A stretch of DNA of 63,615 nucleotides, from the NCBI GenBank assembly GCA_028823035.1, contig JAPKCI010000009.1:1-63615 (forward strand), written 5' to 3'. Positions 6,229 through 44,418 of the stretch are shown piece by piece (position 1 is the stretch's first letter; the number at the start of each line of letters is the position of its first letter). The DNA comes from Rubripirellula sp. (lineage in GTDB: Bacteria; Planctomycetota; Planctomycetia; Pirellulales; Pirellulaceae). The notes below the pieces were generated by a model that saw only the letters and a program-made list of their open reading frames with translations, searched no databases and was not told where the DNA came from. Made by a program: the position numbers and the translations under genes.

Positions 6229-8568
6229 ATGGTCTATCAACTGCGATTTGTCGTTCTGTCTGTTTGCCTGATTGCCAGCTCCGCATGTGCTGGCGAGGCA
6301 AAACCGTCGGTCGATGCTACAACGGTAGAGACTTTTGAACGTCGAATCAGGCCCTTACTAAGCGAACACTGTTACCCCTGCCATTCCTTGAAGGCGAAGA
6401 AGCAGCATGGTGGTTTACAGCTTGATACAGCACAAAGTCTGAAACGTGGTGGGGACAGTGGTGCAGTCCTTGTTCCTGGCAACCCTGAAAAAAGTCTGCT
6501 GATCGCAGTGGTGCGTCATGAAGGCGACGTTCACATGCCACCCAAAGGAAAACTATCCGATCGAGAGCTCGACGCATTGACCGAGTGGGTGAAACGCGGA
6601 GCATTTTTTCCTGATTCAGGTGCGCAGGAGCCATCGACCTCGGGCAGCATCGACTATATCGAGGGACGCCAGTTCTGGTCGTTTCAGCCGGTTCAGCAGC
6701 AGGCTTTGTCAGCACTCGCTGACCACGCTTGGTCCAAGCAGCGAATGGATGATTTTGTATTGGCAGGAATGCACCGGAACGGACTCTCGCCTTCACCTGC
6801 TGCAAACCGTGCAACACTGATCCGTCGCCTCAGCTTTGCAATGACGGGACTGCCACCAAAGCCTGAAGAGGTGCGCCGATTCACTGAGGATGATTCTGCG
6901 GACGCCTACTCAAGGTTGGTTGATTCGCTACTGGAATCCCCTCGTTACGGAGAAAAGTGGGGCAGGTGGTGGCTTGACATGGCGCGTTACACCGACCGGA
7001 CCGCCAGCTGGCTGCATCAGTCAGGACAACCCTATTTGTATCGTGACTGGGTCGTCAGGGCATTGAATGATGACATGCCCTACGACGAGTTCATTCACCG
7101 TCAATTGGCAACCGACTTGATCCCCGAAACAGGGCCGGACGACCTTCCGGCATTGGGGTTCATTGGGCTCAGCCCAACTTACTGGAAAGAACTCAAACTG
7201 CCTTGCGAGATCATCAATGTAATTGTTGCAGATGAGTGGGAAGAACGTGTCGATGCCGTCTCGCGAACCTTCCTCGGCTTGACCGTTGCCTGTGCCCGTT
7301 GTCACGACCACAAGTTTGATCCGATCAGCTCGGAAGACTACTACGCGTTAGCTGGGGTCTTTGCCAGCTGCCGTCAAGTGGAATTGCCCACGGTACCCGC
7401 CGAGTCTTACGCACCCGTACTAGCTGCGAAGCAGAAAGTCGCTGAGCTGGAAGCAGAACTTGCCAAACGAAAAAAGGAAACACCGGTTCCCCAACAACGC
7501 ATTGACGAAATCAATCAAACCGTCAATCAAATCAAGACCACTACACCACTCTACAACCTTCCGCTGGCAACTGCCCTGTCGGAAGAGTCGATGTTTGTCG
7601 TCCGCGCTGGCAAGACACCGCAAGATGGAACACGGCTGGAGTACAGAAAGGAACCCAGAGACTTGCCTTTGTTTGCACGCGGGAATCCCAACCGACCTGG
7701 CCCCATCGTCCAACGTCGCTTTCTGGCAGTATTGTCGGCTGAACCAAAGCCCTATCGGAATGGCAGCGGTCGCCTGGAATTGGCGCAATCAATCACAACT
7801 GAAGCTGCCGCATTGACCGCTAGAGTCCTGGTGAACCGGATTTGGCTGGCGCATTTCGGTCGTGGCCTGGTAACCACGCCAAGTGATTTCGGTCGACAAG
7901 GCTCACCCCCCTCGCATCCTGAATTACTTGACGACCTGGCGGCCAGATTCATTGCCAATGGCTGGTCAATAAAAAAGCTGCATCGAGAGATCCTGCTGTC
8001 AGCAACATGGCAACAAGCTTCGGCAGCAACACCCAATCACCAACGGGACCCTGAAAATCAGTGGTTCTCTTATATGATTCCACGCCGTTTGGACCTTGAG
8101 GAATGGCGGGATGCAATGCTCGACGCAAGCGAGACACTCGATGCCGCTCTGGGTGGGGCGTCGATCGACATTGACAGCGTCAAAAATAGACGACGCACGC
8201 TATACGCAACGGTGCACCGCCGAGACATGTCCCCTACATTCATGGTTCATGATTTCCCCGATCCAACCCAACACAGTTCGCAACGGACCCTTACGATAAC
8301 GGCGATTCAGGGATTATTTGCCCTGAACAGCCCTCTGCTCGCAGATCAGGCAAAGACGCTGGCCAAACGCCAAACGGACAGGACACTGGCGGCAATGCGT
8401 GCCGGGATCATTGACATTCATTGGCGATTGTTTTCACGTCCTCCGACGGAGCGAGAAATCGAGTTGGGTCAGCAATTTGTGGGGGATGAATCTCAGAGCA
8501 TGCAGGCAACTTGGCAGCAATACGCGCATGTTCTTTTGGCCAGCAACGAATTTTTGTTCATCGATTGA
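6229..8568 (+). CDS. PSCyt1/DUF1549/DUF1553 planctomycete haem-motif protein
   Basis: This 779-residue protein begins with a signal peptide ending near SSACAG. It then has a planctomycete cytochrome-like domain with a CYPCH haem-binding motif, a DUF1549 domain (around residues 165-375, which includes a second CxxCH, CARCHDHKFDP) and a C-terminal DUF1553 domain (VLVNRIWLAHFGRGLV... and SATWQQ). The region between the DUF domains has a short charged, coiled-coil-like segment. It is shorter than many family members, which often have extra modules inserted there. The biochemical role is not established; such proteins occur in large numbers in planctomycetes next to a Tat-exported DUF1501 protein, as here (55 bp gap). 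A joint function in the cell envelope, perhaps redox chemistry on complex carbohydrates, is inference. Confidence 0.88.
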   Translation: MVYQLRFVVLSVCLIASSACAGEAKPSVDATTVETFERRIRPLLSEHCYPCHSLKAKKQHGGLQLDTAQSLKRGGDSGAVLVPGNPEKSLLIAVVRHEGDVHMPPKGKLSDRELDALTEWVKRGAFFPDSGAQEPSTSGSIDYIEGRQFWSFQPVQQQALSALADHAWSKQRMDDFVLAGMHRNGLSPSPAANRATLIRRLSFAMTGLPPKPEEVRRFTEDDSADAYSRLVDSLLESPRYGEKWGRWWLDMARYTDRTASWLHQSGQPYLYRDWVVRALNDDMPYDEFIHRQLATDLIPETGPDDLPALGFIGLSPTYWKELKLPCEIINVIVADEWEERVDAVSRTFLGLTVACARCHDHKFDPISSEDYYALAGVFASCRQVELPTVPAESYAPVLAAKQKVAELEAELAKRKKETPVPQQRIDEINQTVNQIKTTTPLYNLPLATALSEESMFVVRAGKTPQDGTRLEYRKEPRDLPLFARGNPNRPGPIVQRRFLAVLSAEPKPYRNGSGRLELAQSITTEAAALTARVLVNRIWLAHFGRGLVTTPSDFGRQGSPPSHPELLDDLAARFIANGWSIKKLHREILLSATWQQASAATPNHQRDPENQWFSYMIPRRLDLEEWRDAMLDASETLDAALGGASIDIDSVKNRRRTLYATVHRRDMSPTFMVHDFPDPTQHSSQRTLTITAIQGLFALNSPLLADQAKTLAKRQTDRTLAAMRAGIIDIHWRLFSRPPTEREIELGQQFVGDESQSMQATWQQYAHVLLASNEFLFID

Positions 8569-8622
8569 AATTGCGGCCGACCATTTCAAGGAACGACACA
8601 ACTTTACAACGGAATAAAAATC

Positions 8623-10011
8623 GTGTTCACACCCCCCCCACAACCGCTGGATCGTCGTCGCTTGCTCCGGCAATTTGGCGGTGGCATGGGGATGATTGGT
8701 GCGGCCAGCCTGTTGTCGTCCATTGAGTCCTCACATGCCGGTTCGCTCCCTGAAGGACAAACACATTTCCCGGCTAAGGCCAAACGGGTGATCCACCTGT
8801 TCATGAACGGTGGTCCCTTTCAATCTGATCTCTTTGACCCCAAACCCGCATTACAGAAATACGCAGGCACCAAACCCAACGGGGCTGATTTACTGACCGA
8901 GCGACCGACGGGTGGGTTGTTACCATCGCCATTCAAATTTCAACGGTGCGGCGAGAGTGGATTGCCTGTCAGTGAATTGTTACCAAAACTCAGCCAACAC
9001 ATCGATGATATCTGTGTCCTGAATTCCATGCACGCCGACAACCCGAATCACGGACCGGCTCTGCTGCAGATGAACAACGGTACGATCACACCGACGCGGC
9101 CCAGTATGGGAGCATGGTTCTTGTACGGCTTGGGCACGGAAAACGAAAACCTTCCCGGCTACGTTGTCTTGTGTCCCGGTCGACCGGTGCGGTTTTCCAT
9201 CCTCTGGAATAGTGCCTTTCTGCCATCAAAGCATCAGGGGACCTATATCAACCATTCCACGATGCAGCCAGACAAGATGCTGCCCCATCTCAAAAATGCT
9301 CAGTGGGACGACAAGACTCAGCGTAGGCAGCTCGATTTGCTGCAACAGATTCATAGTGAACACCAAGTTGGACGTGGTAACGCATCGTTGCTCAATGCAC
9401 GTGTTGCTTCGATGGAAACAGCTTTTCGGATGCAATTCGAAGCCAACGAGGTATTTGATCTCGAGCGAGAGTCAAAGCAGACACGGGCAGCCTATGGCAA
9501 GGGGCACTTTTCCAACGGTTGCCTATTGGCCAGACGAATGGTGGAAAGAGGTGTCCGATTTGTCCAGGTCTATTACGGCAATGGTCAGCCATGGGATACC
9601 CACAGTGGCCACGACACAAAGGTGCCAAAGTTGTGCAAGGACATTGATCAGCCAATCGCCGCTTTATTGACAGACCTGAAGCAACGAGGAATGCTGGATG
9701 ATACATTGATCGTATGGGGAGGCGAATTCGGACGCACGCCAACATCCGAGAACGGTACCGGACGCGACCACAATCACCACGGCTTCACCATGTGGATGGC
9801 TGGGGGCGGTGTCAAAGGAGGAATTTCCTATGGCGAAACCGATGACTTTGGCTTCAAGGCGACAGTCAACAAAATGCATGTGCATGATTTACATGCCACC
9901 ATTCTGCACTTACTGGGCCTCGATCATGAAAAACTGATCTATCGCCATGCAGGACGCGACTACCGACTGACCGATGTTTACGGCAACGTTGCCCAAGAAA
10001 TCCTGGCTTGA
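8623..10011 (+). CDS. Tat-exported DUF1501 protein
   Basis: This 462-residue DUF1501 protein has a twin-arginine-like leader (LDRRRLLRQFGGGMG) followed by a hydrophobic segment. DUF1501 proteins are related in fold to the alkaline phosphatase/sulfatase superfamily. Visible family blocks include FMNGGPFQSDLFDPKP near residue 65, GGEFGRTPTSENG near residue 365 and DHNHHGFTMWMAGGG directly after. The start is GTG at 8623, with GGA nine bases upstream; starting later would remove the Tat arginines. The gene follows the DUF1549/DUF1553 gene after 54 bp in the standard planctomycete pairing, so the two are probably one operon. The substrate and reaction are unknown. Confidence 0.9.
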   Translation: MFTPPPQPLDRRRLLRQFGGGMGMIGAASLLSSIESSHAGSLPEGQTHFPAKAKRVIHLFMNGGPFQSDLFDPKPALQKYAGTKPNGADLLTERPTGGLLPSPFKFQRCGESGLPVSELLPKLSQHIDDICVLNSMHADNPNHGPALLQMNNGTITPTRPSMGAWFLYGLGTENENLPGYVVLCPGRPVRFSILWNSAFLPSKHQGTYINHSTMQPDKMLPHLKNAQWDDKTQRRQLDLLQQIHSEHQVGRGNASLLNARVASMETAFRMQFEANEVFDLERESKQTRAAYGKGHFSNGCLLARRMVERGVRFVQVYYGNGQPWDTHSGHDTKVPKLCKDIDQPIAALLTDLKQRGMLDDTLIVWGGEFGRTPTSENGTGRDHNHHGFTMWMAGGGVKGGISYGETDDFGFKATVNKMHVHDLHATILHLLGLDHEKLIYRHAGRDYRLTDVYGNVAQEILA

Positions 10012-20170: not shown

Positions 20171-21223
20171 TCACCGCATCGTGGCAACAAACGCTGCCAC
20201 CATTACAACTGCCAACACCACAGCACAAATCATCAGGATTTTTGCGGTTGATTGTTCCTGCGTGCCATCCCTGCCAGAACGCAATCGAGTTGTCAATGAT
20301 TCAGTCTCGTTTTCAACAGCTTGAATATCACCAAAATGCGCATGTACGTTGGACAGTTCGGAAGCGGAAGTTTCGGCCAGAACACGATGCAGTTCATCCG
20401 TGACCTCTGCGGCAGAAACGGGTCGTTCTTTTCTGTTCTTGGAAAGCAGACGATCAACCAATCGACAAAAATCTGGTGGGCAAGCAGGTGCCAGATCGAT
20501 CAGTCGAGGCGACTGGTCTTCGATATGCCTTCGCATCATTTCATAAAAGGTTACGGTTGCATCACCGTCACGTGGTGCGAAAGGAGTTCGTCCAACCAGG
20601 CATTCGAACAAAATGCAGCCGAGCGCATAAAGATCAGCCCGCCCATCGATACTGTCGTCACCGATTGCTTGTTCAGGTGCAATGTAATACGCAGACCCCA
20701 CAGTAGTCCCAGCCAACGTCAGCATCGGTGACTCGACGTCCCGAGCAAGACCAAAGTCGCCCAACTTGAGCCGTCCATCCTCTGATAGAAAAATATTGGC
20801 AGGTTTTAGATCGCGATGCAGGATTCCGTGATCATGAAAATGTTGCAACCCCTGCGCAATCTGAACACCACACTGGCATGTTTCCCGCCAAGGCAAACTG
20901 TGTCGCTGACTCAACACGTCTTCCAACGATCCCCAAGGCAGATACTGCATAGCAAAATAGAGGATGCCATCTTCGACACCACAGTCACGGTAAGCGACAA
21001 TGTGTGGATCATCCAGTTTCTGTGCGACTGCGATCTCACGAATGAACCGAGCATGGATTTCCTCAATCTCATCTGCGCCCGGACGCAGGACCTTGACCGC
21101 TACCTGTGCTTGACATTCGCGGTCATCTGCCACGAACACATTACCGGCACCACCCCCACCAATCTTTCGAGTGATGAGGTACGGACCCAAAATCGAGCCA
21201 ACACCAACCTTTCGATTACTCAT
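20171..21223 (-). CDS. Hanks-type Ser/Thr protein kinase with C-terminal membrane anchor
   Basis: The 350-residue protein is almost entirely a eukaryotic-type protein kinase domain (about residues 15-285): glycine loop IGGGGAGNVF, ATP-binding Lys44 in VAVKVL, catalytic HRDLKPAN with Asp138, and metal-binding DFG at 156-158. A linker of about 40 residues leads to one transmembrane helix at the very C-terminus (ILMICAVVLAVVMVAAFVAT), leaving only a few residues on the far side. It is therefore a cytoplasmic kinase anchored in the membrane with no sensor domain. The start is ATG 21223; a GTG at 21232 in frame is possible. It converges with the acetolactate decarboxylase gene, 66 bp apart, and diverges from the DUF1559 gene. 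Confidence 0.92.
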   Translation of the reverse strand: MSNRKVGVGSILGPYLITRKIGGGGAGNVFVADDRECQAQVAVKVLRPGADEIEEIHARFIREIAVAQKLDDPHIVAYRDCGVEDGILYFAMQYLPWGSLEDVLSQRHSLPWRETCQCGVQIAQGLQHFHDHGILHRDLKPANIFLSEDGRLKLGDFGLARDVESPMLTLAGTTVGSAYYIAPEQAIGDDSIDGRADLYALGCILFECLVGRTPFAPRDGDATVTFYEMMRRHIEDQSPRLIDLAPACPPDFCRLVDRLLSKNRKERPVSAAEVTDELHRVLAETSASELSNVHAHFGDIQAVENETESLTTRLRSGRDGTQEQSTAKILMICAVVLAVVMVAAFVATMR

Positions 21224-21744
21224 TGCTAGCACGTGTCCTGAGCAAAAGATGGGACCGGTTTGATTTCAGAAATGATTTTCAAGCGAGCATGATCCTCAGA
21301 CAAACCTCACGAGCGTGCAATGGCATCCTGAACTGCGGATCATCAAATCGAACCGCGGATCATCAAATTCGATAAATCCACCATCATCCGTCCACGTGGT
21401 ATTTAGTGGACGTGTGTGGGTCCCACCATTCGTCAAGCAAGCTTGGGGGAACCGCTTACTCATCCATCAACGCTGGTATGGCGTGATGCTGAAATGGCAG
21501 TTCACACGGAAAATCCGCAATCAAGTCGAGTCAGCACGGCTCGGGCAACACTGTTTCAGAACTTTTTTCCGCTAAAATCGCATTTACCGTTGTTTTGAAC
21601 TCGATTGATACTCCGGAATGCAATTATCAGGTATGCTGTTGTGTGCCGCTCTATGAACCAAGCAGGGACCAGCCAGAGGAAGGAACGGGCAATCTTTACA
21701 GTGTCTTTGTTTCGTTAAATGACTTCTGCAACTTCAAAATCGTT
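21224..21744. other. Divergent intergenic region with 20 bp direct repeat
   Basis: The 521 bp between the kinase and the DUF1559 gene contain a 20 bp tandem duplication at 21330-21369. The open frame upstream of the DUF1559 start and the small frames at 21315-21598 have no recognisable features. Promoters for both flanking genes are expected here. Confidence 0.4.
21330..21369. repeat. 20 bp tandem duplication
   Basis: Two adjacent copies of GAACYGCGGATCATCAAATY differ at two positions. They lie upstream of both the minus-strand kinase and the plus-strand DUF1559 gene and could be an operator or simply a slippage duplication. Confidence 0.75.
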
Positions 21745-31643: not shown

Positions 31644-34028
31644 TTAGTTGGCCGGGGCTGACCACTGGTTTCCCCAGCCTAAATAGAGATCATGCAGAGT
31701 AGCTCGCCACTCGGCGGCCTTGCGTGAATGGGGATAAGGTTGTGGTGCGACAGGAGCATCGGCCATCCAGACGATCTCAAACTGCCCATCGGGCATGACT
31801 TTGCCTATGCGAGGTGTCTGATAGGTGTGTTGGGTGGCAGCATCGATCCGCAGCGGGCCGGCCGCAGATTCGACCCGCTGGTTCAACATGGAACGCCGAA
31901 TAGCGACAGGATCATCGCTTCCTGCTTCCATGACAGCCTGCGCCCACAATTTGAAGCCAAAGTACGCAGCTGCCATGGGGTCTGTGAAGACCCGCTGTGG
32001 TCCATACTTGGCGTGAAATGCTGCGAGCAACTGTTCGTTCAACGGCGACTTGATATTCTGAAAGTAGGTCCACGCTGCGTAATCATTCGTCATTTTTGCA
32101 GTTCTCATGAACCGCAATTCTTCTTCGCCGATGCTGAATGAAATGGTCGAGATGTCGGCAAGGTCCGAATCAAAACGCAGCTGATTAAAGAACGCAGTGT
32201 TGCTGGAACCATTGATACAACTAAGAATCACATCTGGCTTGGCGGCCTTGATTTCCTGAATGGCCGGGCCAAAGCCTGAACTGTCCAGCGGCACAAAAAC
32301 TTTACCCACCAGTTCGGCCCCCAGTTCATCCAGCTGATCTGAAATGATCTCGCTGGCGATTCGAGGAAAAACATAATCCGACCCGATCAGAAAGAACCTT
32401 TGATTTTTCTGCGATTCGTAAGCCCACTGGACAGCCGGGATAATCTGCTGGTTGGGTGCAGCCCCTATATAAATGACATTCGGCGATTCCTCGATCCCTT
32501 CATACTGAACCGGGTAGATCAACAGGTTGTTGTGCTCCTCAAACAGGGACACAACCGTCTTTCGACTGGCTGAGGTCCAACAGCCGAACACAGTGCTAAC
32601 CTTGTAATCGACCAGCAGACGCTCCGCCTGCTCGGCGAAAGTTAAAGAGTCTGATCTTCCATCCAGAATCATCGGTTCCACTTTTCTGCCCAGCAATCCC
32701 CCTGCTTGATTGGTTTCCTCAATGGCCAACAAAACCGCATCGACCACGGGCGATTCACTTTGCGCCATGGTGCCACTAAGCGAATGCAAGACACCGACTT
32801 GTATCGGCTCACCGGTAAAAACGGGCACAGCGACTGGCAGACTGGCCGACGCTGGTGAAGACTCAGTTCCCGGACCAACACCTCCGTCATCCGATTGCCT
32901 GCCCATCCAGAAAAAGATGACAAGCACTGCAACAACGGCCAACACGGCGCCGGCAATCAACGACCGGGAAAACGTTGTCCCGGCAGATGGCTCAGTCGCA
33001 ACCGTTGCATCACTGCTGCGGGAACGCATGACGGCAACGGTAACAGGAACAACCGCTTCACCCGCCAATTCCCTCTGCAGTGAATCCAAATCAGCCCTCA
33101 TCTCATCCATTGATTGGTAACGGGCCTCGCGGTCTTTGCCCATCGCACTCCTGATGATGTTGACACAGGCATCGGGCAACTCTGGGCAAAGATCCTGAGG
33201 ATTAGGAGGATCATCATTGCAGTGGGCAAACATCACGTGAACGATGCTGCCTCTCTGCTGATACGGAGTCTTCGCCGTTAACAAACTGTAATAGGTCGCC
33301 CCCAGAGAATAGACATCACTTCTAGCATCAACTGTTTCAGAACGGCACTGCTCTGGACTCATGAACGAAGGCGTTCCAATCACTTGACCAGTCTTGGTCA
33401 TCGACAGAGCATCGTCTTCAGTGGGTTTGGCAAGCCCGAAATCTGAGACCTTGACGGCCCCCTCTTCAGTGAGCAGAAGATTCGCCGGCTTGATGTCCCG
33501 ATGAACAAGTCCACGCCGGTGAGCCGATGCAAGACCAAGGCATGACTCCGAGATGATCCGCGTCGCTTCAGCAACATCGTAGGGTCCCTCTTTCTTCAGC
33601 ACATCCGACACACTGCCGCCGGCAACAAGTTCCATCGCCAGGAAGTGAGTCGAGTCATCTTCGCCAATCTCATAGATGGTGACGATGTTGGGATGATTAC
33701 TCTTGGCAGCACTTCGGGCCTCGGCACGAAAACGCATCAAAGAATTTCCGTCCTCGCATAGATCGGGTGGTAATAATTTGATTGCCACAGTTCGATCGAT
33801 CGAACTGTCGATGCCCTTCATCACCAATCCCATGCCACCCTTACCAAGAAACCCGGTGATCTGGTACTTACCCAAACGCTGCCCCAGCCATTGGTCGGGG
33901 TCATGCTTTACGCGGTGCGTATAGGTAGCCTCAGCATCAAACCTGCGTGTCGACAATGACTCGGAGTCGTCGACGCCGTGAGTAACCTGATGCGACTCCT
34001 GCAATGGATCTTCATCGTTACTATTCAT
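31644..34028 (-). CDS. Ser/Thr receptor kinase fused to UrtA-like urea/amide-binding domain
   Basis: The 794-residue protein has a complete Hanks-type kinase (about residues 55-320; Lys84, HRDIKPAN with Asp178, DFG at 196-198), a single transmembrane helix (about 356-376), a short linker and a full type I periplasmic-binding-protein domain (about 408-790). That domain carries blocks typical of UrtA/FmdD urea and short-chain-amide receptors: GVLHSLSGTMA, FGCWTSASRK (481-490), YPVQYEG (505-511), GAAPNQQIIPA (522-532) and GSDYVFPR (549-556). Topology predicts kinase inside and binding domain outside, giving a one-polypeptide receptor kinase for urea or a related amide. No urea transporter or urease gene is adjacent. 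ATG 34028 is the only early start in the frame. The domain assignments are firm; ligand and output are inferred. Confidence 0.9.
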   Translation of the reverse strand: MNSNDEDPLQESHQVTHGVDDSESLSTRRFDAEATYTHRVKHDPDQWLGQRLGKYQITGFLGKGGMGLVMKGIDSSIDRTVAIKLLPPDLCEDGNSLMRFRAEARSAAKSNHPNIVTIYEIGEDDSTHFLAMELVAGGSVSDVLKKEGPYDVAEATRIISESCLGLASAHRRGLVHRDIKPANLLLTEEGAVKVSDFGLAKPTEDDALSMTKTGQVIGTPSFMSPEQCRSETVDARSDVYSLGATYYSLLTAKTPYQQRGSIVHVMFAHCNDDPPNPQDLCPELPDACVNIIRSAMGKDREARYQSMDEMRADLDSLQRELAGEAVVPVTVAVMRSRSSDATVATEPSAGTTFSRSLIAGAVLAVVAVLVIFFWMGRQSDDGGVGPGTESSPASASLPVAVPVFTGEPIQVGVLHSLSGTMAQSESPVVDAVLLAIEETNQAGGLLGRKVEPMILDGRSDSLTFAEQAERLLVDYKVSTVFGCWTSASRKTVVSLFEEHNNLLIYPVQYEGIEESPNVIYIGAAPNQQIIPAVQWAYESQKNQRFFLIGSDYVFPRIASEIISDQLDELGAELVGKVFVPLDSSGFGPAIQEIKAAKPDVILSCINGSSNTAFFNQLRFDSDLADISTISFSIGEEELRFMRTAKMTNDYAAWTYFQNIKSPLNEQLLAAFHAKYGPQRVFTDPMAAAYFGFKLWAQAVMEAGSDDPVAIRRSMLNQRVESAAGPLRIDAATQHTYQTPRIGKVMPDGQFEIVWMADAPVAPQPYPHSRKAAEWRATLHDLYLGWGNQWSAPAN

Positions 34029-34219: not shown

Positions 34220-34426
34220 TCAGTCGTCACTTAGCTCAACATTCTCGGCTCTGGGCCCTTTAGGTCCCTGACCAACGGTGTAGGTCACATTCTGGCCTTC
34301 ATGCAGGTCATTGTAAGCGACTCCCTCAACAGCAGAACTGTGGAAGAACATGTCTTTACCATCGTCTTCGGTAGAAATGAACCCAAAACCCTTGTCGGTC
34401 AGACGCTTGATCGTTCCCTTTTCCAT
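34220..34426 (-). CDS. Cold-shock-domain RNA-binding protein (CspA family)
   Basis: The 68-residue protein is a single cold-shock domain of normal length, with RNP1 KGFGFI and RNP2-like DMFFHSS, beginning MEKGTIKRL. It binds single-stranded RNA or DNA and acts as an RNA chaperone. It stands alone between the UrtA-kinase gene and a one-TM protein gene. The ATG at 34426 lacks a strong Shine-Dalgarno. Other family members are translated from long structured 5' leaders, and the 507 bp upstream without a clear gene could hold one, but no structure was demonstrated. Confidence 0.95.
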   Translation of the reverse strand: MEKGTIKRLTDKGFGFISTEDDGKDMFFHSSAVEGVAYNDLHEGQNVTYTVGQGPKGPRAENVELSDD

Positions 34427-39975: not shown

Positions 39976-40098
39976 CCTGTCTGGAATGCCCGATTCGTGT
40001 AGGCATGATTAACATTTCGACTGCACGAATACGCGGTCGAAAATGCAATAGAATGAAATTTGCTGCAGTCGCTCGCTGAGAAAAACAGGAATGGCCTG

Positions 40099-43000
40099 AT
40101 GCCGGAAAACGAAAAACAGTCGATTACAGAACGCGCGAGAAAAATTGCACTGGCAGCGATGGCGGAGTCGACGTCTTTGGTATCACCATCCATCGATGAA
40201 ATCCTGGAAGCCAATCCCGACATCGCGACGGAGGTAAAACGGCAATTGAAACTGCTCGGCTTTGTGAAGACAGCCACTGAGAAAGATGAATCGGTAATCG
40301 AGGCGGATTCTGATCAGTCTGCCTTTGAAACGACACGGGTGATCAGCGATCTCGATACTGGCTACGAATTCCACAACCAACCTACCTTGGCACGCTGCCC
40401 AAATTGCCGTCAGCAACTTCCAACCGTCGAATTTTCGGAGGAAGAATACTCTCACAGGATCACATGTGAGAACTGTAAAAATTCGGTGCTGCTGCTCAAC
40501 AATCGCAGGCGACTTCATACCGGGTCAAAGATTGCCCATTTCGAATTGGTATCACCCTTGGGGGCGGGATCTTTCGGACTGGTCTGGAAAGTATGGGATA
40601 CGAAACTGCAACGACACGTTGCACTCAAAATACCACGACGTGGTTTATTGACTGGCGAACAGCAAGATCTATTTCTTCGCGAAGCCCGCGTTGCTGCTGC
40701 CATCCGCCATCCGCACGTGGTCGCCATTCACGATACGGGAGTGGACCGCGGCACAGTCTATATCTGCAGCGATCTGATCGATGGCACAACCTTGGCACAG
40801 TGGCACCGAGAATCCTGCGATTCTCCGATGGCTGCTGCGGTAATGATGCAGAAAATTGCGATGGCGCTTCAGGCGATCCATGAATGCTCTGTCATCCATC
40901 GCGATCTGAAGCCCAGCAATGTGATGGTGGATTCAAAGAATGATCCCCAAGTCATGGACTTCGGCTTGGCAAAGCAGGATGTCTTTGAGGCAACCATGAC
41001 TTTGAGCGGTGAAGTGATGGGAACTCCTGCCTACATGTCACCCGAGGCAGCCAAAGGGGAATCGCGATCGTCGGACCCACGAACCGACATCTACTCAATG
41101 GGCGTGATGCTCTACGAGCTTCTCACCGGTGAGTTACCCTTCCGTGGCGACTTCACTCAACTTGTGCAACAGATTCTGCACGCCAAACCCCGCTCGCCAG
41201 TTGACATCAACCCGACAACACCAAGCGTCCTGGAAACAATCTGCCTGAAATGCATGGAGAAAGATCCTCGGGACCGCTATCAGACCGCCAGAGAACTTGC
41301 AGAAGATCTGAGCAGATTCGCAACCGGCAATACGATTTCGGCTCGTCCGCAAACATTCTCAAAGCGGTTGCTCCGCACAACCCAATCGCATCCATGGATG
41401 ACAGTCACTGCAATCAGCTTCGCCATCACCACCATCATGCTTCCCCTTGCCCTGAGTATGGCAGTCAGGCACCAAACCGACGCCACCAACGCAAGGGAAG
41501 AAGTAAAGAACGCGAACAAAGCAGCCTCCAGCGCAAGGGAAGAAGTCAAAGACGCGAACAAAACAGCCTCCAGCGTGATAGCTGAACTTGAGCGGTCACA
41601 AGCGGTTAAAAACTACAAAATCACAATCGATCAGTCGGCGGACATGATCTTTTCTCAACCGCTCGAAAGCATGCGAACGGCTATCGAAACGGCAAAAACA
41701 ATTCAGCTTGATTCAAGCTTGAAATCGGGAAACCAAACCAAACTACTCATTCAACTCCAGCAAACCCTGCAAGACTCACTCCGCACGCTAGGTGGTGAAC
41801 CCATCAAAATAAAAGGGGCAGTCATCGACTCGGTGCAATCACCCACCAATGGTAACTTCGCATTCTTGACCAAAACATCGAATGCGCAGCCACCCGTTGG
41901 TTCCAGATTCACACGCAAGCTCATGCACACCACAATCGACGCGACTGAAATAACAGCCAATAGCAAGCCCGTTTCCAAAATCACGTACCATCCCACGACG
42001 ACCGTCAACCAAATCAAAATTGATCCGACGGGCGAGTACGTATTGACCTACAACAGTGATCTGGAAAATCCTGGCGCCGCGATGGCCACCAGATTGAGTC
42101 AATCTTTTGGCAAAGTATCTCAGGGAATAATTCCGCATGCCATTGCAAGTTCATGTTTCCCCACCTGGTCGACGGACCTTTGGATTGTCGATGCCACTGG
42201 CATGGTGACCTGCTGGCCTACCGGAGTCGAGGGGAAACTCAGTCCAAAACACAACCTGGCCACGACCCTACCAGTAAAACGCATCCACGCTTTACCCTCA
42301 GCAGGTCAACTGGTAACAGAATCTGAGCAGGGGATTCAATTATGGAACGTCCAGGTTGGCGAGAACATCGCCAACTCGTTACCACTCGCCGGTCCCACCT
42401 GCAAATTCGTTCCGTTCTTGCCCCGAACTCGATTGAGGACTGCCCCAATACCCGAAACGACTGCTGGATGGTGGAATCGTCAGACGAACGAGTTGGTTCT
42501 GGAAACATGGCAAATCGGCTCATTTGACAAACGCGAGCGGTGGACTGCTTCCTTGCCCAAGGTTGAGGACATCGGAGCGTGCTACCACAGTGAGGATCAA
42601 GAATGGCTATGTGCAAATCTTATTGTCAATGGTGTCGGATCCTGGCACTGGTGGTCGCTGACAAAACCCGATACACAAGCACAGAGCATTCCTCTTGCTG
42701 GCGATCCGCAAATGGGAATCGAGGTCAGCCCCGAAGAAAAAGACATCATCGTTGGATCAAGAAAACGTCTATCGCAGTTTCGGGTTACTGCCGGCACGCT
42801 ATTGCTACATCAAAGCTTCCTTGCCAACGACAAGAATATCGAAACCTTTGCATGGCTTGGGAACAGCCACCGAATTGCAGTAGCTTACGGGAACGAGGTT
42901 CACGTTCACCAACTGCATGAGGCCCACCATCCTGCGTCTGCTGTTCAACGTGAGCGAAGGGAAATTCCCGACAGCACGATTCTGCTTGGTCGTGATTCGC

Positions 43001-44418
43001 CGATAACCCGGATTTTCAGTGGCTCGGATGGTCAGGCAATCGTGACTTTGGATACCGATAGTCGCATGCGAAAATGGGTGATTTCCGAGCCCAACCACGA
43101 CTCCCTCTTCGAACTGGGTTCGGCGACTGGGGAGGCTACAAACCCTAATCCAAAAGTACAGATCCACGATACCGGAAAGATCGCGTTGGCGCTCGATTCA
43201 AATGGCCTTCTCACCGTCTGGAACACTCAACGAATTCGCAATTTTTTCAGCAACTGGTACGTCGTAAAACAGCAACCATCGATTGCCCATGCGACGCTGC
43301 AAGGCTCGACTCTGGCAATCGCGAGTGAGGATGGGAAGGTGGATGTTTTTTCCGTCAGCACCAACGGTTTTCTGTCAGAAAAATACCAAACAACATCACA
43401 AGTGAAGTTCTTGCAGATCAGCGAGAACGAACGATGGCTGTGTCTGCTTGGCAACGGCGATTCGTCGATGGTGGATTTGAGCCAACCCAACGACACACCA
43501 TGGAAACTGCCTGAACCCGGAAATCCCATCGCCGCCGCTTTTATCGGTGAAGGTTCCAACCTTCTCACCATCAACGAAAACAAGGAGTGCAAAGTCTGGA
43601 ACCCAAAAGAAAGGACATCGACAACCCCGGAAAGCGATCTGGGAAACAAGTGCACGGGTACTCTGGTGCCGGGAAAGAAGGCTGTAATGTATCCATTTGA
43701 GTTTGGTAATATCACGCTGATCCAGCCCTCGCCCCAAGGGGGATACATTTGCAAAAACTCTCAATTCCACCGAAGATCTGAGCAAATGCACTTTGTTCAA
43801 AGCGATGATGGTGAACACCTGCTAGCCGAGGTCAAACCCAAAAAAGAGACTCTCGGCGGGGCTGTGGTGACGAAGTTTGGAAAAACGGCAGACCTCGCAA
43901 AATTCCCCTTTTGGGATTCGCTTGACCCACCGCCGCCAAGCAGCACGACAAGTGGTGTCAATAATCTGCTGGCCATCAGTCCAGATAATCGTTGTTTGAT
44001 TCGTAGCGGCATTGCCGGATTCCACGCGTGGTACTTTCCGGAAAGCAGGCTGGAATATTTTCCGAATGTGGATCTGTCCACCGACGCTGCTACCGAGTTG
44101 CTGTTTTCACCTGACGGACAATGGCTGATTGTCGGACACAACAGCGGGATGATTCGTCTGTGGCCAATTTCGGAGAACGCAGTACATCCGACCCCAATTG
44201 AATTCGATTTACACAAATCACCCATCACTTCCATCGCGGTTGATCCGCTGTCCCGCTGGTGTCTGTTTTCCAGCAATGACAAAATCTGCCGTATGCCTCT
44301 GGACATTAAGATTCTTGAGGAACAAGCAAACAAACGATTCCGCATTGAGTCTGTGCTACCCCCTGCCAAGGCGACGCAGGGATCCGGTCCCAAGAAGAGC
44401 GCACCTGCAACGCCTTGA
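40099..44418 (+). CDS. Zn-ribbon Ser/Thr protein kinase with large C-terminal propeller-like region
   Basis: The 1439-residue protein has an N-terminal helical region, a CPNC...CENC zinc ribbon (Cys100, 103, 123, 126) and a Hanks-type kinase (about 147-410; Lys177, HRDLKPSN with Asp269, DFG at 287-289). One transmembrane helix follows (about 433-455), then a short coiled coil with two repeats of AREEVK(N/D)ANK(A/T)ASS, and about 900 residues of WD40-like beta structure (for example LLFSPDGQWLIVGHNSGMIRLWP). The propeller part would lie outside the cytoplasm if the helix spans once. CAGGA lies eight bases before ATG 40099. An ECF sigma gene follows after 193 bp, a pairing typical of planctomycetes, so the kinase probably controls that sigma factor. 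Confidence 0.9.
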   Translation: MPENEKQSITERARKIALAAMAESTSLVSPSIDEILEANPDIATEVKRQLKLLGFVKTATEKDESVIEADSDQSAFETTRVISDLDTGYEFHNQPTLARCPNCRQQLPTVEFSEEEYSHRITCENCKNSVLLLNNRRRLHTGSKIAHFELVSPLGAGSFGLVWKVWDTKLQRHVALKIPRRGLLTGEQQDLFLREARVAAAIRHPHVVAIHDTGVDRGTVYICSDLIDGTTLAQWHRESCDSPMAAAVMMQKIAMALQAIHECSVIHRDLKPSNVMVDSKNDPQVMDFGLAKQDVFEATMTLSGEVMGTPAYMSPEAAKGESRSSDPRTDIYSMGVMLYELLTGELPFRGDFTQLVQQILHAKPRSPVDINPTTPSVLETICLKCMEKDPRDRYQTARELAEDLSRFATGNTISARPQTFSKRLLRTTQSHPWMTVTAISFAITTIMLPLALSMAVRHQTDATNAREEVKNANKAASSAREEVKDANKTASSVIAELERSQAVKNYKITIDQSADMIFSQPLESMRTAIETAKTIQLDSSLKSGNQTKLLIQLQQTLQDSLRTLGGEPIKIKGAVIDSVQSPTNGNFAFLTKTSNAQPPVGSRFTRKLMHTTIDATEITANSKPVSKITYHPTTTVNQIKIDPTGEYVLTYNSDLENPGAAMATRLSQSFGKVSQGIIPHAIASSCFPTWSTDLWIVDATGMVTCWPTGVEGKLSPKHNLATTLPVKRIHALPSAGQLVTESEQGIQLWNVQVGENIANSLPLAGPTCKFVPFLPRTRLRTAPIPETTAGWWNRQTNELVLETWQIGSFDKRERWTASLPKVEDIGACYHSEDQEWLCANLIVNGVGSWHWWSLTKPDTQAQSIPLAGDPQMGIEVSPEEKDIIVGSRKRLSQFRVTAGTLLLHQSFLANDKNIETFAWLGNSHRIAVAYGNEVHVHQLHEAHHPASAVQRERREIPDSTILLGRDSPITRIFSGSDGQAIVTLDTDSRMRKWVISEPNHDSLFELGSATGEATNPNPKVQIHDTGKIALALDSNGLLTVWNTQRIRNFFSNWYVVKQQPSIAHATLQGSTLAIASEDGKVDVFSVSTNGFLSEKYQTTSQVKFLQISENERWLCLLGNGDSSMVDLSQPNDTPWKLPEPGNPIAAAFIGEGSNLLTINENKECKVWNPKERTSTTPESDLGNKCTGTLVPGKKAVMYPFEFGNITLIQPSPQGGYICKNSQFHRRSEQMHFVQSDDGEHLLAEVKPKKETLGGAVVTKFGKTADLAKFPFWDSLDPPPPSSTTSGVNNLLAISPDNRCLIRSGIAGFHAWYFPESRLEYFPNVDLSTDAATELLFSPDGQWLIVGHNSGMIRLWPISENAVHPTPIEFDLHKSPITSIAVDPLSRWCLFSSNDKICRMPLDIKILEEQANKRFRIESVLPPAKATQGSGPKKSAPATP
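41491..41574 (+). repeat. 42 bp in-frame tandem duplication within the kinase gene
   Basis: Two adjacent 42 bp units encode the 14-residue coiled-coil repeat just after the kinase's transmembrane helix. The copies differ at only a few bases, so the duplication is probably recent. Confidence 0.9.

Follow-up and report, generated by a model that had tools for sequence, protein, structure and literature searches.

A receptor-type Ser/Thr kinase with a UrtA-like ectodomain, a candidate urea sensor, in Rubripirellula sp.

Gene layout, ectodomain identity and ligand pocket

The window analysed here is the whole 63,615-nucleotide stretch of Rubripirellula sp. contig JAPKCI010000009.1 (assembly GCA_028823035.1). 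Positions 31644–34028 on its minus strand hold an open reading frame (ORF) of 794 amino acids (aa) with an ATG start, in which Pfam detected both a protein kinase domain (Pkinase, residues 55–306) and a periplasmic binding domain (Peripla_BP_5, residues 409–769). An initial annotation, made from the sequence alone, had described a one-polypeptide receptor kinase with a UrtA-like ectodomain at this place, and the layout was confirmed by the ORF call and the Pfam matches. The features of the gene are the following.

31644..34028, minus strand: whole gene, kinase – transmembrane helix – UrtA-like receptor, 794 aa (ORF call and Pfam)
33111..33866, minus strand: Hanks-type Ser/Thr kinase domain, residues 55–306 (Pfam PF00069, 163.4 bits, and motif audit)
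33351..33443, minus strand: activation segment DFG...SPE, residues 196–226 (motifs; loop 199–216 of the model has a predicted local distance difference test score, pLDDT, under 50)
32904..32960, minus strand: single transmembrane helix, residues about 357–375 (hydropathy 2.88; helix 360–375 in the model)
31722..32804, minus strand: UrtA-like type I periplasmic binding domain, residues 409–769 (PF13433, Peripla_BP_5, 453.5 bits, cut-off 27)
32133..32579, minus strand: stretch with the nine urea-pocket residues, W484–S632 (alignment to P. marinus UrtA)
31647..31721, minus strand: C-terminal tail with W-x3-W (WGNQW), residues 770–794 (tail pattern scan)

The kinase is a complete Hanks-type domain, intact as annotated: besides the PF00069 match, the motif audit found the catalytic residues K84, E103, D178, N183, D196 and E226. 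Between the kinase and the binding domain, the hydrophobic segment at 357–375 is the only outstanding one in the protein, the next separate window scoring 1.24, which agrees with the single transmembrane helix proposed before. The full-length AlphaFold2 model (51-row alignment) had a mean pLDDT of 84.5 and a predicted template modelling score (pTM) of 0.59, with values under 50 in stretches 1–38, 199–216, 326–361 and 375–390, and the relative placement of kinase and ectodomain in this model is not interpreted. The model of the ectodomain alone (43-row alignment) reached a pLDDT of 94.5 and a pTM of 0.93. The binding domain is complete, and the four motifs that the initial annotation had quoted were found at residues 481, 505, 522 and 549.

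Among the NCBIfam models, the UrtA model TIGR03407 ranked first, with 422.5 bits for the whole protein and 425.4 bits for the ectodomain alone, followed by an archaeal urea-type ATP-binding cassette (ABC) model with 188.2 bits. A better score to branched-chain binding proteins had been named as an outcome that would speak against the UrtA assignment; the branched-chain model gave 36.8 bits, and a branched-chain amino acid binder was therefore rejected. When the PDB sequences were searched with phmmer, the best match was 8tg1 (377.9 bits), the UrtA chains scored 289–294 bits and AmiC 156.8 bits. Foldseek searches with the ectodomain model gave the same order, the first six rows all being urea-binding proteins (E values 1e-46 to 3e-41) and the AmiC rows coming after them, from 2e-32.

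The alignment to UrtA of P. marinus allowed the pocket to be compared residue by residue. Nine residues of that protein lie close to urea (PMC10392092). These are W120, S122, Y141, Q144, E146, Y190, F192, N246 and S274, and their equivalents in the window protein are W484, S486, Y505, Q508, E510, Y552, F554, N606 and S632. All nine residues are identical, both proteins having the signature WSYQEYFNS, so that the urea contacts are kept. According to the same work, urea binding is strongly lowered or abolished in the W120, S122, Q144, Y190 and N246 mutants and lowered by mutation of Y141, E146 and S274, whereas F192 is of little importance. AmiC reads YSYPEYYVT in the same columns, differing at five of the nine, and an AmiC-type amide receptor was rejected on these pocket residues, although AmiC remains a relative in fold. 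Over 26 fusion rows, identity to the window protein averaged 0.93 in the pocket columns and 0.59 in all columns, a level reached by nine random columns with P 0.0003. As judged by alignment and modelling, the ectodomain is a UrtA-type domain with its urea pocket intact.

Fused and non-fused relatives

The fusion was looked for in three samples. The first comprised 147 genomes of relatives, the window's own included; the ectodomain was matched at E ≤ 1e-30 in 35 of them, and a kinase match lay in the same ORF at 21 of the 30 loci L009–L038. Second-copy kinase fusions were verified in four genomes (G107, G109, G132 and G141), the total for this sample being 25 fusions across 21 genomes. The second sample consisted of 392 genomes of the phylum, 40 of which had a match at E ≤ 1e-60, at 47 places. 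Ten of these places, the window's excluded, were inspected: five are kinase fusions (L124–L128), three (L129–L131) have a histidine-kinase H-box after the binding domain, and L132 and L133 have neither. The third sample was drawn from named genome contigs; of 588 confirmed stretches it took the best 80, picked as lying nearest to the fusions. It holds 13 kinase fusions, 11 of them with planctomycete titles, such as that of Thalassoglobus neptunius strain KOR42 (L044); L101 comes from a deltaproteobacterial metagenome-assembled genome (MAG) and L042 is titled 'bacterium'. L040, titled Planctomycetaceae bacterium, has an ORF end identical to that of L011, whose genome falls in the same genus, and this points to a planctomycete host. 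After removal of three duplicates, 40 distinct fusion proteins were counted, including that of the window.

The kinase residues D, N, D and E are conserved in 42/42 fusion rows and K and E in 41/42, the sole row lacking them (L012) being an ORF cut by a contig end. In 19 of the 21 fusion loci of the 147-genome sample, the hydropathy of a segment exceeds 1.6. All nine pocket residues are kept in 27/40 distinct fusions (29/42 rows when two duplicates are included); the pocket is altered in L018, L020, L023, L024, L026, L030, L034, L101, L120, L121, L122, L123 and L128. Where a genome carries two fusions, as four genomes do, the copies differ in pocket signature (in G107, for example, WSYEEYFNS and WSYTEGYSK), which may reflect ligand diversification among receptor kinases. 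These second copies (L120–L123, from G109, G132, G107 and G141) all have changed pockets, three of them with Y190 replaced by G and S274 by K or R. A UrtA-like domain is also joined to a histidine kinase in L035, where Pfam found HisKA, HATPase and response-regulator domains, and L036 was classed with it by likeness. Hydropathy nowhere exceeds 1.6 in L035 and L036, and hence both may be cytoplasmic, although this threshold also misses two kinase fusions.

Most of the non-fused proteins of the third sample lie beside signalling genes. A partner was defined as a same-strand stop-to-stop ORF starting from 400 bp before to 1000 bp after the gene end and matching a profile of the N-terminal sensor half, which was built from nine partners of these loci; those nine match by construction. 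By this definition, 51 of 67 non-fusion loci (range L049–L115) have a receptor gene next door, with a histidine kinase output in 24, a methyl-accepting chemotaxis protein (MCP) in 17, SpoIIE in 4 and an unclassified output in 6, some of these cut by a contig end. HAMP was over the cut-off in all nine partners scanned with Pfam, and dCache_1 was found in eight, four of which (L051, L064, L066 and L109) passed its cut-off, with none listed for L097. The outputs were HATPase/HisKA in the partners of L049, L051 and L055, SpoIIE in those of L052 and L066, and MCP in those of L064, L097 and L109; the partner of L050, cut by a contig end, showed PAS domains only. No partner receptor was found within 1 kb of the 13 fusion loci, although for two of these (L041 and L046) less than 500 bp of downstream sequence is available. 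Across the 147 genomes, partner receptors over 280 bits occurred in six, none of them among the 21 fusion genomes (Fisher p 0.59).

At sixteen non-fusion loci a downstream partner is lacking. The neighbour is a permease that passes the UrtB cut-off at six of them (L102, L110, L112, L116, L117 and L119), L067 has its partner upstream, in L077 the domain is fused to a TrmB-type regulator, and eight have no explanation (L059, L060, L061, L065, L070, L071, L090 and L118). The nearest non-fused relatives within the best 80 of 588 stretches are thus mostly signalling proteins; because the sample was selected to lie near the fusions, its ratios do not represent the whole family.

The WSYQEYFNS pocket is present in 20/24 histidine-kinase-linked and 3/4 SpoIIE-linked binding proteins. 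Among the MCP-linked ones, 14/17 have a changed pocket (10 WSYAEYWVA, 2 WSYAEYWVS and 2 WSYAEYWAS; for example L064, L078, L086, L089 and L094), a switch that likely corresponds to a ligand change tied to chemotaxis. L077, at 7209–9185 of a Pacearchaeota MAG, combines a TrmB-type helix-turn-helix with a UrtA-like domain of pocket WSYEEYFNS and might be a cytoplasmic regulator that responds to urea or amides. L049, L050 and L055 score 499–529 bits, over the TIGR03407 cut-off, though they are signalling-linked and adjoin HAMP receptor genes whose dCache_1 match is below the cut-off.

The origin of the ectodomain was approached with quick trees, supported only by the Shimodaira–Hasegawa-like approximate likelihood ratio test (SH-aLRT), and with the C-terminal tail. 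In the first tree (101 rows), 25 of the 26 fusion ectodomains grouped together with a support of 81, with L114 outside. The UrtA rows, including L038, formed a separate clade with two urea-binding PDB chains (support 100), and a fork with support 98 unites this clade with histidine-kinase- and SpoIIE-linked binding proteins while leaving the fusions outside. L038 was kept as a UrtA row in both trees, and it was not counted as a transporter UrtA because its genome, G079, shows no UrtB match. The tail of the window protein carries the pattern W-x3-W, which is present in all 40 fusions (13/13 and 27/27 rows) and in 47/51 partner-linked binding proteins, and in none of the seven UrtAs whose genes adjoin UrtB or lie a few kb from it. 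L038 has a match to the pattern, but its tail differs. The pattern was picked after inspecting the tails, a stricter one having under-counted, and it was found in 0/320 other 75-residue stretches. Tree and tail favour an ectodomain that descends from binding proteins of this subfamily with a role in signalling.

Genome context and urea metabolism genes

The assembly of the window's genome comprises 7.4 Mb in 523 contigs and is 99.58% complete. Pfam scanning of 18 other ORFs of the window revealed neither a urea transporter nor a urease gene, as the initial annotation had stated for the neighbourhood; the sole transporter gene among them codes for an amino acid permease and lies at a distance of 13 kb. 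At the genome level no second Peripla_BP_5 protein, no urease alpha match, no arginase-family match and no FmdA/AmdA match at E 1e-10 were obtained. UrtB was never over its cut-off (two weak matches, best E 2.0e-6; UrtC, UrtD and UrtE were not searched genome-wide), so the protein is not encoded with UrtBCDE permease and ATPase genes as far as the window ORFs and the genome-wide UrtB search extend. The urea carboxylase match is below the cut-off and spans the first 441 of 1201 profile positions.

In the 147 genomes, urease was over the cut-off in seven (a fragment in G011 being under it), UrtB in five and urea carboxylase in none. Candidates scored per genome were 8 for urease, 15 for UrtB, 4 for urea carboxylase and 12 for the partner receptor, and a gene could be missed in these counts because only the first few candidates were scored. 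The urea carboxylase rows listed stop by profile position 468 of 1201 and are probably ordinary biotin carboxylase. FmdA/AmdA matches were present in 38/147 genomes (6/21 with a fusion and 32/126 others). Fusion and other genomes did not differ in Fisher's test for urease (p 0.59), UrtB (p 1.0) or FmdA/AmdA (p 0.79), so that the lack of urease and UrtB in fusion genomes is not statistically distinct. A link of the fusion to urea metabolism was set aside on this lack of association (urea channels, allophanate hydrolase and purine routes to urea were not searched), and the safe conclusion is only that the fusion does not need urease, UrtB, urea carboxylase or FmdA/AmdA genes.

The kinase gene seems to stand alone. 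Upstream of it, on the same strand, lies a 68-codon ORF like a cold-shock protein, named by eye (window 34220–34426, minus strand); on the downstream side, an ORF of 151 codons with no Pfam match is oriented towards the kinase gene. Two further Hanks kinases occur in the window, at 20171–21232 (minus strand) and 40060–44418 (plus strand), the second with WD40-type repeats. The full query has 61 matches in the genome.

Proposed function and comparison with known systems

We consider it probable that the protein crosses the membrane once and acts as a receptor Ser/Thr kinase with a signalling role, its ligand being external urea or a very close analogue. The kinase would be cytoplasmic and the Venus-flytrap domain extracytoplasmic. 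Because the ectodomain resembles a known urea-binding protein and the urea pocket is intact, the cell may sense urea directly, and urea would serve as a signal rather than as a gate to urea catabolism. Binding of urea or the analogue would close the flytrap, upon which two receptors might rearrange or dimerise; the paired kinases could then trans-autophosphorylate the activation segment, and the activated kinase would phosphorylate cytoplasmic targets. Dimerisation on ligand binding has been described for PknB (PMC6213207). Signalling 'without a two-component system', as the initial annotation put it, fits this protein, but 24/67 of the non-fused relatives have a histidine-kinase partner gene.

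Several observations weigh against this proposal. The protein scores below the NCBI UrtA cut-off (422.5 vs 492.75 bits for TIGR03407; five UrtAs adjoining UrtB reach 593–618). The fusions L019 and L034 peak at a hydropathy of 1.54 and 1.52. Altered pockets in 13/40 distinct fusions mean that family membership alone does not fix the ligand. Urease, UrtB and urea carboxylase are over the cut-off in none of the 21 fusion genomes, so no downstream urea use is visible. Fusion loci appear only singly in the member lists printed for the 14 largest neighbour clusters, which therefore indicate no target. Finally, placing the fusions in one clade with the transporter UrtAs costs only 6.25 log units (approximately unbiased, AU, test, p 0.415, in a tree that leaves out L034 and AmiC and does not count L114 as a fusion).

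The pocket and genome data bear on two other accounts of the ligand. The true ligand might be a different small amide or a compound resembling urea (formamide, acetamide, guanidine, hydroxyurea or a product of purine breakdown), urea itself binding only weakly. We find this rather unlikely: pockets do vary, in the 13 fusions and in the 10/17 MCP-linked relatives with WSYAEYWVA, the 21 fusion genomes lack the three urea genes over cut-off and six of them carry FmdA/AmdA-type genes, but the window protein has the nine residues of urea-bound UrtA, its best sequence and fold matches bind urea, and FmdA/AmdA genes are neither enriched in fusion genomes nor matched in its own. A degenerate, ligand-free scaffold that mediates only contact or dimerisation would suit a genome without urease, UrtB or urea carboxylase over cut-off, and at least three pocket changes are seen in L020, L030, L034, L101, L121–L123 and L128; it is very improbable given that the pocket columns are far better kept than the average column. 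Practically no weight is left for an assembly chimera or frameshift joining two genes, an error at the linker that the initial annotation had itself raised, because ORFs that combine the kinase with the binding domain were found in other genomes too, for a total of 40 distinct proteins, one of them from T. neptunius KOR42.

As regards origin, the initial annotation had UrtA 'captured' from the transporter, which was not established. Family and pocket are indeed shared with UrtA, and the AU test does not reject the common clade; against this, the best tree puts the UrtAs with histidine-kinase- and SpoIIE-linked proteins, apart from the fusions, and relatives found mostly in signalling operons share the tail that UrtAs near UrtB lack. 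Direct capture thus appears unlikely. A wider reading is tentative, somewhat more doubtful than not: the UrtA-type receptors may include a large mis-annotated signalling branch, in which a flytrap with a W-x3-W tail reports urea or its analogues to several outputs. If so, a receptor of dCache-HAMP type encoded next door would pass the signal to histidine kinase, chemoreceptor and SpoIIE outputs, whereas Ser/Thr kinases, chiefly in Planctomycetota, would receive it by being fused to the flytrap; a switched pocket would mark a new ligand, and the fusion hosts would sense urea as an ecological cue while unable to use it.

Few bacterial receptor Ser/Thr kinases have a known ligand. The pocket of the proposed urea receptor predicts one that is simple, cheap and testable, and this would offer a clean system in which to study how a flytrap gates kinase activation. 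Some binding proteins with a signalling role would also be taken for urea transporter subunits by the NCBI UrtA model: since L049, L050 and L055 pass its cut-off, 'urea transporter' calls from UrtA alone can mislead, in nitrogen-cycle surveys as elsewhere. There is probably an NCBI product name of the form 'bifunctional serine/threonine-protein kinase/ABC transporter substrate-binding protein'; if this is right, annotation pipelines already see the architecture.

No paper on a fusion of a UrtA-type domain with a Ser/Thr kinase was found among the open-licence papers listed for narrow term combinations, which is weak evidence of absence. Extracytoplasmic sensing by binding-protein domains has long been recognised (PMC1592074). 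A survey of planctomycete kinases names TPR, WD40, sulfatase-modifying, DUF1080 and tubulin-like domains, and the terms urea and substrate-binding are absent from its main text (PMC11032199). Closer in design are the fusions of SBP_bac_3 with Pkinase in Actinomycetes and other Gram-positives, which likewise unite a substrate-binding domain and a Ser/Thr kinase in one protein, but with another class of binding protein than the Peripla_BP_5 of the window protein; the table that reports them also lists two Peripla_BP_5 genes without a co-occurring domain (PMC13293324).

The PASTA kinases PknB, PrkC and Stk1 (NF033483) share the cytoplasmic Hanks kinase, the single transmembrane helix and the extracytoplasmic sensor. 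The window protein matches NF033483 with 314.9 bits over residues 53–322, below the cut-off of 450, and has no PASTA repeat in Pfam, which sets it outside this group: PASTA kinases sense through their repeats, whereas this protein would do so through a flytrap binder of small molecules. AmiC, the amide receptor of the Pseudomonas amidase operon (1pea, 1qnl and 1qo0), has the same fold, likewise used for signalling, and occupies Foldseek rows 7–10 with 26–27% identity to the ectodomain; it differs in its pocket and acts with AmiR, as the title of entry 1qo0 states, and not via a kinase. UrtA of the UrtABCDE transporter (8hic, 7s6e and 7s6f; 8tg1 is titled periplasmic urea-binding protein) has the same fold at 40–47% identity, and all nine pocket residues of 8hic recur in the window protein, which differs in being tethered by a transmembrane helix to a kinase, in its additional C-terminal W-x3-W tail, in scoring under the TIGR03407 cut-off and in coming from a genome without UrtB over cut-off. 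The closest non-fused relatives among the best 80 loci are the UrtA-like proteins beside histidine kinase, MCP and SpoIIE receptor genes, which share the tail and differ in using two genes instead of one polypeptide, and other output domains.

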